The translations under genes and the position numbers were made by a program. A stretch of DNA of 64,000 nucleotides. Source: Halorussus vallis (GTDB lineage: Archaea > Halobacteriota > Halobacteria > Halobacteriales > Haladaptataceae). Numbering within the stretch: the first letter of the stretch is position 1; every line of letters begins with the position of its first letter. The notes beneath the pieces were generated by a model that saw only the letters and a list, made by a program, of their open reading frames with translations, had not been told where the DNA came from and did no database searches. Shown piece after piece: positions 4,929 to 63,049 of this stretch. The stretch is taken from the NCBI RefSeq assembly GCF_024138165.1, contig NZ_CP100000.1:1364001-1428000 (forward strand). The letters run 5' to 3'.

Positions 4929-5393
4929 TTATCGCATCGCCTTGAGCAGCGAGTCTATCTGCTCGGTGTCGTGCTTGCCGAGTTCGCCGCCCTCCGGGAC
5001 GGGATGCTTGAGTCCGTCGTGGCCGCCGCGGGGCGGGTGGAGTCGGAGGACGGGGGTGAGCCCCTGCTCGCGCAGGGTCGTCTCCTCGTCTAAGAGCGCC
5101 GACGCGAGGTCGGCGACGTCGTCGTAGTCGGTGTTGTCGCCGACCCACTCGTCGTCAACCGCCTCCGAACCCTCGATGGGTTCGGCGCGCTTGCGGAGCA
5201 CCGTCTCCAGGACGTCCTGGCTCGGCTCGCCGTACGCGGTGTAGTCGTTGACCTTGGTGATCATCCCGCGGTAGGTGTCCGTGTCGGGCACCAGCGCGCA
5301 GTGGTTCACCTTGTGGATGTTGAGCATCTCCAAGGTATCCTTGGTCTTCTGGGACATGTCGACCTCACCGCGGAGTTGGACGACGGCCTTCAT
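4929..5393 (-). CDS. rpl30: Ribosomal protein uL30
   Basis: A large-subunit protein of 154 residues, the archaeal/eukaryotic L7-type form that is about twice the bacterial length. It shows the N-terminal VVQLRGEVDMSQKTKDTLEM segment and the archaeal signature VNHCALVPDTDTYRGMITK followed by VNDYTAYGEPS. The start is the ATG at 5393, whose A overlaps the TGA of rps5 (TGATG), implying translational coupling; a GTG one codon upstream is possible but less likely. The C-terminal region ends LKHPVPEGGELGKHD, conserved in archaeal L30. Confidence 0.96.
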   Translation of the reverse strand: MKAVVQLRGEVDMSQKTKDTLEMLNIHKVNHCALVPDTDTYRGMITKVNDYTAYGEPSQDVLETVLRKRAEPIEGSEAVDDEWVGDNTDYDDVADLASALLDEETTLREQGLTPVLRLHPPRGGHDGLKHPVPEGGELGKHDTEQIDSLLKAMR

Positions 5394-16424: not shown

Positions 16425-17294
16425 TCACTTCTCTTTGAGGTTCAGGCAGGCGAGGGTGGCGAACATCGCTTCTTCGGTTCGCACCACCTCGCTGCCTTGA
16501 TTCGGGATCGCGTTTAGCCAGAGGTCAAACCCGCCTGGTGCGTCGGATTCGACGTTGGACTCCGCGTCCGCCTCGTCTCCCGAGTGGACCGACTCCACCG
16601 GGAGGTCGAGCATCTCCGGCAACCCGCGACCGGGAGAGCCGAACGCGACGGTCACACCGTCGCGTTCGGTGCGGCCGACCAGTTCGGTCAACCGCCCGGT
16701 CGTGAGTTCGACCCCGTGGCGGGACGTCGCGATGCGAACGCCCGCGTCGTCGCGGTCGAGGGCCGCCGGAAGGTCCGTGCGCGTCACTTCGAACCCCGGA
16801 AGGGGCTCGTCTACGAGCTTCGCACGGACCGGACTTCGCGAAGAGATCCTGACGGTTACGCGCTCCCCCTCGGCGACCGTCATTTCTGACGGTACGACGA
16901 GGGAGATCGGGTGTTGCATGCCGCAATTGACCCGTACGCGCCCTTCAGGTCCGACCTCGGTCACGATTCCCTGTCTTAACGACCCCGAACCGTTCGATTC
17001 GGAGCCGGTCAGTGAGGGGGCGCGGAGCGGCGGTAGGACGCCCGCGAACTCCAATTCGTCTCGCCTGCCGAACGCCTCCTTTCGGAGGTACGGCGGCGTG
17101 GCCGCGTACTTCAGTACGGTGCTTACGAATCCGCCACCCCATCGCCGCTCGCCGTCGGGGTCCGGAAAGACCCCGAGGCGGTCGGCCCGGAAGACCGTCG
17201 CCGCACGGGCGACGTAGCCGAGTTTGCGAGTGGCCTCGCGTTTGTCCTCGGCTTCCCGGACGAGGGATGACGGCACGAGCACGCTGACTGTCAT
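16425..17294 (-). CDS. SPOUT-family RNA methyltransferase (C9orf114/COG2106-like)
   Basis: A 289-residue putative RNA methyltransferase that would transfer a methyl group from S-adenosylmethionine to an RNA base. The N-terminus TVSVLVPSSLVREAEDKREA and the segment ADRLGVFPDPDGERRWGGGF match the archaeal COG2106 family; an inserted OB-like region follows (GIVTEVGPEGRVRVNCGMQH), and the C-terminal SPOUT knot shows VAFGSPGRGLPEML and LNAIPNQGSEVVRTEEAMF. In archaea this gene precedes rpl3, as here with a 4-nt gap, which suggests a link to ribosome biogenesis. The exact modified base is not known from the sequence. Confidence 0.88.
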   Translation of the reverse strand: MTVSVLVPSSLVREAEDKREATRKLGYVARAATVFRADRLGVFPDPDGERRWGGGFVSTVLKYAATPPYLRKEAFGRRDELEFAGVLPPLRAPSLTGSESNGSGSLRQGIVTEVGPEGRVRVNCGMQHPISLVVPSEMTVAEGERVTVRISSRSPVRAKLVDEPLPGFEVTRTDLPAALDRDDAGVRIATSRHGVELTTGRLTELVGRTERDGVTVAFGSPGRGLPEMLDLPVESVHSGDEADAESNVESDAPGGFDLWLNAIPNQGSEVVRTEEAMFATLACLNLKEK

Positions 17295-41890: not shown

Positions 41891-42424
41891 TCAGGCCGCG
41901 GTGTCGTGCGGCCCGGTGAAATCGCGCTCGCGGCGGTACTGTTCGACGAACTCGCTCACGTCGAAGTTCAGCATGTCGTCTTCGAACTGCGCCATCGCGT
42001 CGTCGTTCTCGGCGTGGCTGACGGCGTGTTCCATCAACTCCACGAGGAGTTCGACCACGATCTCGTGGAGGCGCCGCGAGTCAAAGTCGGTGACCCACAC
42101 CAGCGCGTAGCCGACGTCCTGGTCGTCCTCGACGTTCTCGCTCGTCACATCGCCGGGGAACTCCTCCATCACCACGCCCATGATGTGGGCGGTGCCGAAC
42201 TCCCCGAGGTCGTCGTCGGTATCGATGGTCTCCTGCAGCACGGCGACGAGGAACTCCGGGACGAAGCGCGACGGCGGATGGATGTCCATCACGACCGCGT
42301 GGGACTCCCCGCACGCGCAGTCGTACTCACGCATCCCCATGTCGAGTTCGTGGACGTGCACCGACTCGCCGCAAGGGAGGTCAAGCTCCGCGCCGCGGCC
42401 GCCCGGAACGCCCGGTTCTGCCAT
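41891..42424 (-). CDS. DUF5815-family protein
   Basis: A 177-residue acidic haloarchaeal protein matching DUF5815 from memory. The N-terminal 50 residues hold a four-ligand metal site candidate (LPCGESVHVHELDMGMREYD, CACGESHAVVMDIHPPSRFV) with CxCG and histidines. The helical remainder (FLVAVLQETIDTDDDLGEF, LHEIVVELLVELMEHAVSHA) has no membrane segments. CTTTAAAC ~27 nt before the ATG gives a leaderless start. Function is unknown; the cysteine and histidine cluster suggests zinc. Confidence 0.85.
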   Translation of the reverse strand: MAEPGVPGGRGAELDLPCGESVHVHELDMGMREYDCACGESHAVVMDIHPPSRFVPEFLVAVLQETIDTDDDLGEFGTAHIMGVVMEEFPGDVTSENVEDDQDVGYALVWVTDFDSRRLHEIVVELLVELMEHAVSHAENDDAMAQFEDDMLNFDVSEFVEQYRRERDFTGPHDTAA

Positions 42425-42592
42425 GTCCGGGGCTTGGAGTCTCGCGCGTTTAAAGGCCGCGGATAGGAGGCGTTTCGCCTTCGGAGGTCTGCTTTCCTGC
42501 TACGCGAGATAGCAACAGCAGTGACCGTGACCACCTCGAAAGCTCATACGTACGCTGAGAATTGCAATCATCGCAATGACTGCAACCGCCTC
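42425..42592. other. Gene-free upstream part of the 42.4-42.9 kb gap
   Basis: Promoter region of the DUF5815 gene plus sequence lacking a credible gene. It contains a short repeat of ACCTCGAAAGC at ~42532 and ~42590 (ACCGCCTCGAAAGC), with AATTGCAATCATCGCAATGAC between them. Confidence 0.4.
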
Positions 42593-42725
42593 GAAAGCCC
42601 CCGGCCGGTCGCGGTCGTTCTGTGGGATATTCACGCCTCACTTCGTTCGGCGAGAATAGTTGCCCACAGAAGCGACCAAGGGCCTGCGGCCCGCGACCGG
42701 CCGGCCCTTTCAGTCCCACCCACGA
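42593..42725. repeat. Structured GC-rich repeat element, family 1 copy A
   Basis: A 133-nt element that folds as nested stems. Outer 14-bp arms 42601-42614 and 42691-42704 are perfect; the next, 42613-42626 with 42663-42677, has one bulge; the inner stem is TATTCACGCC/GGCGAGAATA with one mismatch. A small hairpin GGGCC-TGC-GGCCC (42680-42692) interrupts the right side. The ends GAAAGCCCCCG and GCGGCCCGCGA...TTTCAGTCCCACCCA recur at 48984-49214. No protein is encoded. It may be a non-coding RNA, a miniature mobile element or a terminator unit. Confidence 0.6.
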
Positions 42726-42860
42726 GGAAGGTGACACCGAGCGTCTATGGTAGAATGTGTGACCGAGCGTTTGCGGTAGAGGGTGTCGTCGCGCGCTTCC
42801 GCGGCGTCGGCCCGTGGCTACAGCAACCTCAGAAGCCAGTACGAGAGTTCGAAAGGACAG

Positions 42861-48983: not shown

Positions 48984-49214
48984 GAAAGCCCCCGCCCGGT
49001 CACGCGAGCGTAGCGAGCGTGACGTTGTCGTCGTGAACGCAGTGAACGACGGCTCGACGGACGTGTCCGTCGGTGTCGGAACTTGCTTCCGACAGAACTC
49101 GCGGTCGCTGCGAGACATATCCGGTTTGCGCCTGACGGCGCTCACCGGATAGGGGTCCCGCAAGCAACCAGGGGCCTGCGGCCCGCGAGCGGGCGGCCCC
49201 TTTCGTCCACCCAG
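48984..49214. repeat. Structured GC-rich repeat element, family 1 copy B
   Basis: A 231-nt element sharing both ends with copy A at 42593: left GAAAGCCCCCG, right GGGCCTGCGGCCCGCGA, then GGCCC, TTTC and GTCC/ACCCA. Between them is a chain of hairpins, such as TATCCGGT/ACCGGATA and GTCGGAA/TTCCGAC, unrelated to the interior of copy A. Conserved ends with a variable core suggest a mobile or modular element. It encodes no protein. Confidence 0.6.
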
Positions 49215-49310
49215 ACCGCCACCGCACCACGCCCTCCTCAGCCGACTCCCTCACTCGCTTCGCTCGTTCGGTCGTCCACCGGAAGACTTCGCTTCGCTCG
49301 ACTTCCGAGC
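49214..49310. repeat. GC-rich repeat, family 2 copy 1
   Basis: Begins GACCGCCACCGCACC (49214-49228), identical to 57518-57532, then ACGCCCTCCTCAGCCGACTCC, a close match to the other copy. Both copies later contain CCGGAAGAC followed by the complementary CTTCCG, i.e. a hairpin. It directly abuts family 1 copy B. Confidence 0.55.
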
Positions 49311-57336: not shown

Positions 57337-57412
57337 CTTCGTCGGATGGCCGTGAGTGCCTCCGGCACTCCGGCCACCGCTCCTCGAAAAAATCTGGACC
57401 AAAAAAGGACAC

Positions 57413-57451
57413 GCGACTGCGCCGAGACGCACTGCGTCTCGGCGCAGTCGC
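57413..57451. repeat. 39-nt perfect inverted repeat
   Basis: Arms 57413-57431 and 57433-57451 are exact 19-bp reverse complements around a single C. It could be a secondary terminator or a cruciform. Confidence 0.8.
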
Positions 57452-57517
57452 ATCTTCTATTACCAGTGCGATTTCCGCTCTTCCACTCGTGCGGGCGCTT
57501 CGCGCCCTGTCGACCGC

Positions 57518-57690
57518 GACCGCCACCGCACCGCCACGGCCACACGCCTCCCCAGCCGATTCCGGCGCGCCCCGAAGGGGCGCTCGGTCATCCCTCGCGC
57601 GCATGGGCGCGGCCCCAAACCGCCGGAAGACACCCCGCGTCTTCCGAGGTCACCCTCGCGTCGCTCGCGTGACCGCGGGGCCGCGCCAGC
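57518..57690. repeat. GC-rich multi-hairpin repeat, family 2 copy 2
   Basis: Starts with GACCGCCACCGCACC identical to 49214-49228, then ACGCC...CAGCCGATTCC. It is followed by GCGCCCC-GAA-GGGGCGC (57567-57583), and a three-way fold: outer GCGCGGCCCC (57607-57616) with GGGGCCGCGC, inner CGGAAGAC/GTCTTCCG and GGTCAC/GTGACC. No protein is encoded. It lies between the MFS and AI-2E-family genes. Confidence 0.55.
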
Positions 57691-57781
57691 GCGCGCCGGG
57701 GGATAAATCGGTCCCGCGTCGAATCCCGGCGAACTCCCCCCGACCCCGGCCGACTTACGTATCCGGGTCTAACGTCCGTGC

Positions 57782-62662: not shown

Positions 62663-63049
62663 CTACGACGGAGTGGCGTCGTTCGACTCGACTTCGGCTT
62701 CGTCGCCGGACTCGCGTTCGAACGCGAGTCCGGCGACGAAGCCGAACCACGCGAGGCCGACCCCGAGCGCCGCCGCCGCGAAGTTCGGCCCCGTCTCGAC
62801 GCCGTTCAGCAACGCCACCGCGCCGAACGTCGCGACGCCAACGAACGCGGCGCTCGTCCAGTTCGCCCCGTCGGTCCGCCAGAGCGCCGACGGATATCGG
62901 AGCGCGATAGTCGCGCCTGCGACCGACACCTGCGCGATTCCGACGAGCAGGATGGGCGTTCGCTCGGCCGCGGGCGTGACGGCGGCGACGCCGCCGGTCG
63001 CGGCCGCACCGACGAGGAGGGCGACGGCGTATCGGAGGACTCTGTGCAT
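62663..63049 (-). CDS. Four-helix membrane protein with palindrome-encoded C-terminus
   Basis: A 128-residue protein with helices VLRYAVALLVGAAATGGVAA, TPILLVGIAQVSVAGATIA, SAAFVGVATFGAVALL and FAAAALGVGLAWFGFVAGLA. The tail FERESGDEAEVESNDATPS is acidic. The ATG at 63049 is chosen because a TAATAAAT box at 63101 predicts a ~29-nt leader; an upstream start would cross the promoter. The last helix end and tail are encoded by a 54-bp perfect palindrome. Family unknown. Confidence 0.72.
   Translation of the reverse strand: MHRVLRYAVALLVGAAATGGVAAVTPAAERTPILLVGIAQVSVAGATIALRYPSALWRTDGANWTSAAFVGVATFGAVALLNGVETGPNFAAAALGVGLAWFGFVAGLAFERESGDEAEVESNDATPS
62693..62746. repeat. 54-bp perfect palindrome inside coding sequence
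   Basis: Arms 62693-62719 and 62720-62746 are exact 27-bp reverse complements with no spacer. Both strands read FGFVAGLAFERESGDEAE in one frame. Confidence 0.95.

Follow-up and report, generated by a model that had tools for sequence, protein, structure and literature searches.

Does a 133-nt structured unit between two genes of Halorussus vallis specify an RNA, or is it a piece of mobile DNA? The unit, copy A, lies in a 64,000-nt stretch of the genome (the window), and the original prediction, made from the sequence alone, left both answers standing, a non-coding RNA or a miniature mobile element. That the unit is structured was confirmed: none of 200 shuffles equalled its RNA fold (-74 kcal/mol, z -6.4), and it folds as single-stranded DNA with z -7.6 for the + strand and -6.9 for the - strand. 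A covariance model (R1) matches it with 116 bits at C1:1406590-1406720 of the genome (window 42590-42720). Its core comprises 119 nt with GAAAG...CTTTC ends, and AGTCCCACCC adjoins, reaching 42721. The layout is GAAAG-CCC-P1-(P2/P3/P4)-P5-P1'-CC(C)-CTTTC, with a predicted three-way junction (Table 1).

Table 1. Parts of copy A, copy B and their flanking modules, in window positions
Feature	Position	Strand	Evidence or remark
Copy A, structured core	42593-42711	+	Match to covariance model R1; RNA and DNA fold z
Outer terminal stem, 5' arm GAAAG	42593-42597	+	Pairs with CTTTC at 42707-42711; near-invariant pairs in 28 copies
Unpaired CCC/CC(C) internal loop	Directly inside the GAAAG/CTTTC stem	+	Copy A structure
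P1, 5' arm CCGGCCGGTCGC	42601-42612	+	Pairs with 42693-42704
P2/P3/P4 branch	42613-42677	+	Alignment A1; structure counts
Conserved GGTCG...CGACC	In the P2/P3/P4 branch of copy A	+	Alignment A1
Variable P3	42620-42626 with 42663-42669	+	Alignment A1; structure counts
Variable hairpin P4	42630-42656	+	Alignment A1; structure counts
Conserved inner loop ATAT/AATAGNGG	In the P2/P3/P4 branch	+	Loop kept in other genera
P5 hairpin GGGCC-TGC-GGCCC	42680-42692	+	Seen in RNA and DNA folds
5' module of copy A	42529-42592	+	Degenerate ~60-nt unit ending ...GCAACCGCCTC
3' module of copy A (approximate extent)	42712-42790	+	Alternative 3' modules on near-identical cores; unit counts
Copy B	48984-49204	+	Fold; covariance-model match; site empty in 16 congeners
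Second-type 3' module, start (GTCCACCC...CTCCTCAGCCGACTC)	49205-49260	+	Pattern match; after copy B
Stand-alone second-type 3' module, coreless	57510-57699	+	Sequence and pattern matches

Comparison of copies altered the picture of conserved ends around a variable core with which we began. Among the best conserved parts are the inner loops and the P2/P3 junction, whereas the stems change sequence in a concerted manner; in P1, both sides are altered in 5 of 12 pairs across copies. P5 differs among other copies, the shortest form being CG-TAAA-CG. The ends of copy A do recur in copy B, as had been noticed, with GGGCCTGCGGCCCGCGA found again exactly at 49172. The interior of copy B, which had been called different, proved to hold the same core (67.5-bit match at window 49075-49213), into whose P1 5' arm ~100 nt forming four hairpins have been inserted. 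These hairpins are consecutive, perfect stem-loops (48998-49098) that leave the overall fold undisturbed, and another copy in the collection (L028) carries a shorter, two-hairpin version of the insert.

The element is modular: degenerate ~60-nt units make up its 5' module, which is followed by a core of ~119-135 nt and one of several 3' modules. Over 58 copies the upstream flank shows position-specific conservation; extra 5'-arm units are present in 15 of these copies, and a conserved but degenerate CTC or CCA precedes GAAAG. The 5' module of copy A holds a partial 5'-arm repeat, CCTCGAAAGC, at 42532-42541, and its 3' module begins with AGTCCCACCC, followed by ~26-nt tandem units (GTGACACCGAGCGTCTATGGTAG / GTGTGACCGAGCGTTTGCGGTAG). 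Cores that are 92-97% identical carry unrelated flanks, which start at GAAAG on one side and at TTTCA on the other. Different flanking modules thus swap cores, through either insertion or conversion, both of which fit the data. In one copy (L015, G000:C1:644066-644223), the 5' arm faces one way, and the branched interior and the outer 3' end face the other.

The window contains other palindromes. The stand-alone second-type 3' module has a nested hairpin of its own (GTCACCCTCGCGTCGCTCGCGTGAC). At 62693-62746 lies a perfect 27-nt inverted repeat that is loopless (I8), and at 57403-57461 a 29-nt inverted repeat, 86% complementary, with a 1-nt loop and AT-rich ends on either side, which is either terminator-like or another palindromic repeat. 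We also observed, at 16849-16948 on the - strand, a strong (76-bit) match in this haloarchaeon to the Rfam L4-Archaeoglobi ribosomal protein leader.

Searching the genome for further copies, we obtained 60 BLAST matches to the copy A unit and ~67 strong copies with a covariance model trained on 28 copies, with E-values, which are rough, down to 1e-31. Sixty-five copies lie on the 3.96-Mb contig (the main chromosome) and 2 on the 0.56-Mb contig. Matches occurred in 28 of 40 relatives and, across the class Halobacteria, covariance-model hits in 84 of 292 genomes and 38 of 77 genera (E 1e-6); since scoring in this class sample was limited to the 11 best candidates of each genome, copy numbers from it are lower bounds. 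Named genomes that show the pattern are, among others, Halorussus, Haladaptatus, Haloarcula, Halomicroarcula, Halobacterium and Salinibaculum, and none lies beyond the haloarchaea. No element was found in the phages and viral contigs searched, and Rfam 15 gave no match over the element at its gathering cut-off (best sub-threshold E at relaxed thresholds, 1.6). Pairwise core identity between copies has a median of 79%, and copies in other genera have the invariant loops in common. Several Haloarcula plasmid records (L177/L178 around 5001-5124; L169-L171, L173, L175) hold the element with conserved flanks, ~500 nt upstream of a gene with a SOSS-B/OB-fold family protein annotation, and related contigs are alike. 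GC-rich palindromes of this kind seem familiar from haloarchaeal intergenic regions. We found no prior description of this repeat from haloarchaea in the open-access literature, where this large and widespread family is apparently undescribed.

The sites of copies A and B are empty in congeners that have the adjacent gene. Copy A adjoins a DUF5815 gene (41891-42424) with orthologues in 16 congeners, and in all 16 the site lacks the element; in several of them the gene that comes next is as long as the DUF7124 gene found next in the window. The copy B site is likewise empty (16 of 16). Two sister species that are ~95% identical (G004 and G014) have several copies in common by descent and differ by blocks of roughly 300-400 nt that bear the element: at one site an intergenic region of ~480 nt with element and modules stands against 66 nt without, and at another ~370 nt against ~100 nt. 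Together, the empty sites and these element-bearing differences indicate that the element is mobile. We detected neither a dedicated transposase nor a target duplication; the longest flanking direct repeat was 3.69 versus 3.78 in shuffled pairings. Among copies recognisable in both genomes of a sister pair, to which this comparison is confined, the core was ~96% identical and the adjacent intergenic DNA ~90%.

Not every difference between sisters is an insertion. One locus (L135) was rejected as a filled/empty pair because the sister site has identical modules from which the hairpin was deleted, with a GCT microhomology. In two other comparisons of ~95% identical genomes (L142 versus L144, L145 versus L146), the flanking genes align but the intergenic DNA on the element's 5' side has been exchanged in its entirety, which recalls the deletion-coupled insertions reported for Haloquadratum.

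Copies are confined to intergenic DNA and oriented with respect to genes. No predicted gene was overlapped by any of 67 copies in the H. vallis genome or 81 elsewhere, the predictions coming from a home-made codon-usage gene finder. In tandem gene pairs, 32 of 41 elements in the H. vallis genome ran antisense to transcription (9 sense; p 4e-4), as did 26 of 31 in other Halorussus (5 sense; p 2e-4); these p-values are optimistic because copies are related and often clustered. In the other Halorussus, a gene start lies on the element's 5' side at a median of 135 nt (minimum 83 nt). Genera other than Halorussus showed no antisense bias (6:7), and in the H. vallis genome sense genes were not enriched downstream of the element. 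Close pairs of copies were tail to tail in 5 of 5 cases.

The explanation that best accommodates these results, and which we consider probable as a whole, is that copy A represents a mobile DNA repeat that is non-coding and non-autonomous. Of the two original alternatives, the miniature mobile element is the one upheld: copies are dispersed and all intergenic, orthologous sites are empty, and cores have sharp boundaries and interchangeable flanking modules. Among known systems, the closest description is that of SMR-A and SMR-B, small mobile repeats found in Haloquadratum walsbyi. These are ~80-110 bp long with prominent terminal inverted repeats, occur in dozens of copies commonly >95% identical to one another, sit among other repeat modules and are inserted into near-terminal palindromes of PATE/IS605 elements; they make no target duplication, encode no transposase, and their mobilisation is unexplained (PMC3119063). 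Our element is likewise haloarchaeal and short, with terminal inverted repeats (GAAAG/CTTTC plus P1), no transposase gene and no target duplication; it is present in dozens of copies, and its cores sit within repeat modules. It differs in its 119-135-nt core, branched three-way junction, presence in many genera, and copies with a median identity of 79% rather than >95%. Because its copies are less alike, and insertion into PATE/IS605 palindromes would be no more than a possible shared feature, we do not file the element as a Haloquadratum SMR, although by description, the basis on which the two were compared, it works alike.

With these repeats, BOX elements of Streptococcus pneumoniae are the closest known kinds. 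They are intergenic and modular, contain internal modules in tandem, form extensive secondary structure and are arranged as boxA-boxB(n)-boxC with target duplication (PMC3049150). Modular intergenic design and secondary structure are shared, but our element has an unrelated sequence, an archaeal host and no target duplication, and its core is flanked by tandem modules rather than built of them, so it is not a BOX member. Haloarchaeal MITEs (for example, of the ISH2 type) are also non-coding, with inverted termini and high copy number, but they have a target site duplication, which our element lacks, and share their ends with a transposon. At the Y1 loci, where shared ends were looked for, no parental transposon ends matched the element.

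A more specific form of the mobile-repeat explanation, overlapping with it, is that the element resembles REP/BIME sequences and is mobilised by an IS200/IS605-type Y1 (HUH) transposase, in the way that RAYTs move REPs. The likeness extends to intergenic hairpins, paired inverted copies (here tail to tail) and a probable single-strand substrate, and the lack of target duplication and the CTC or CCA conserved ahead of GAAAG also fit. Nevertheless, REPs are 20-40-nt hairpins with a conserved 5' tetranucleotide, whereas the core here is far larger and branched and its flank degenerate. RAYT genes are flanked by the repeat, and we found no dedicated RAYT-like gene in the genome. The single intact Y1 transposase, which is followed by a TnpB-like reading frame, has ends unlike the element and no covariance-model match nearby. 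The search for a Y1/RAYT source led only to this IS605-like locus, which we rejected for its unrelated ends, and we regard the specific Y1 reading as unlikely.

The other original alternative would be a structured non-coding or cis-regulatory RNA family that multiplied by duplication and is maintained by selection for the RNA fold. Covariation is strong: both sides of a stem had changed in 100 cells, compared to 26 in shuffles, far exceeding every slid structure. The compensatory changes that had been proposed as support for a structured RNA are therefore abundant. However, selection on an RNA fold should tolerate G-U wobbles and purge A-C mismatches, and this was not observed. G-U and A-C cells numbered 69:79 over 77 copies and 52:78 in an independent replicate of 81 copies, unlike the 40:0 in tRNAs of the same genome, a control that leans to zero A-C because ARAGORN picks well-paired tRNAs. 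When only the well-aligned stems P1-P3 were counted, the ratios were 38:29 (main set) and 36:41 (replicate); the slight excess of G-U in P2/P3 of the main set (23 versus 16) came mostly from one junction pair. As reading the opposite strand merely swaps G-U and A-C, neither strand has a wobble signature.

Copies shared by sister species point in the same direction. Their visible stem substitutions look one-sided, and none of five vertical pairs inspected contained a compensated stem pair. Concerted arm changes therefore appear to arise mainly between copies, as expected where palindromes are copied or converted whole. The most plausible reading of the fold is thus a hairpin or cruciform of DNA rather than an RNA kept by RNA selection. 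The strong covariation, conserved inner loops across genera, the orientation bias and the slightly better conservation of the core than of neighbouring intergenic DNA would favour an RNA family; orthologous sites without copies, the lack of an Rfam match and the lack of enrichment of sense genes downstream speak against it. In all, we judge an RNA family quite unlikely, and this half of the original prediction is not supported.

Could copies instead be fixed chromosomal protein-binding sites (insulators, terminators or nucleoid sites) conserved for host function? The near-restriction to the main chromosome and the placement upstream of gene starts are what such sites might show, but positions differ between species, and strand order along the chromosome, checked as a sign of replication-linked function, was absent (runs test p 0.69). 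Copy A also contained no terminator-like site in a scan that uses bacterial consensus patterns. We consider a fixed site highly improbable. Lastly, chance similarity between two GC-rich inverted repeats, for which high genome GC and many weak repeats in the window might have argued, is refuted by the BLAST and covariance-model copies with their low E-values, the class-wide distribution and the loops invariant in other genera, and its probability is negligible.

We return to the mobile DNA repeat and to how it might move. When single-stranded, one DNA strand would fold into the three-way-junction hairpin; alternatively, the duplex could extrude as a cruciform. That some unpaired bases are conserved implies that one strand is recognised in its folded state, by what we infer to be the mobilising enzyme. 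A putative trans-acting recombinase or transposase may recognise CCC/CCC, ATA/TAGNGG, the bulged purine and GACCA. Stem arms would change together if a palindrome is transferred entire, whether it founds a new copy or overwrites an old one, and inserted copies would then decay by one-sided mutation and hairpin deletion. In Halorussus, insertion or survival would be polar, just upstream of the promoter and antisense to the gene. Against the mobile reading stands the somewhat better conservation of the core than of adjacent DNA in the sister pair, which could reflect retained function, and conserved unpaired bases and strand bias relative to genes would fit an RNA also. A tentative and bolder proposal, possible though short of likely, is that the family represents an undescribed, Halobacteria-specific lineage of single-stranded-DNA-hairpin mobile elements, in which the branched three-way-junction hairpin, with its conserved extra-helical bases, is the substrate of a putative recombinase and insertion is polar, just upstream of promoters.

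These findings carry a warning for RNA discovery: compensatory changes, which would usually count as proof of a structured RNA, find a better explanation here in mobile DNA palindromes, and the ratio of wobbles to A-C mismatches separates the two. The putative mobilising enzyme may also matter for Haloquadratum, whose small mobile repeats are enigmatic. Because the element lies upstream of gene starts in a polar arrangement, effects on gene expression can be tested directly.
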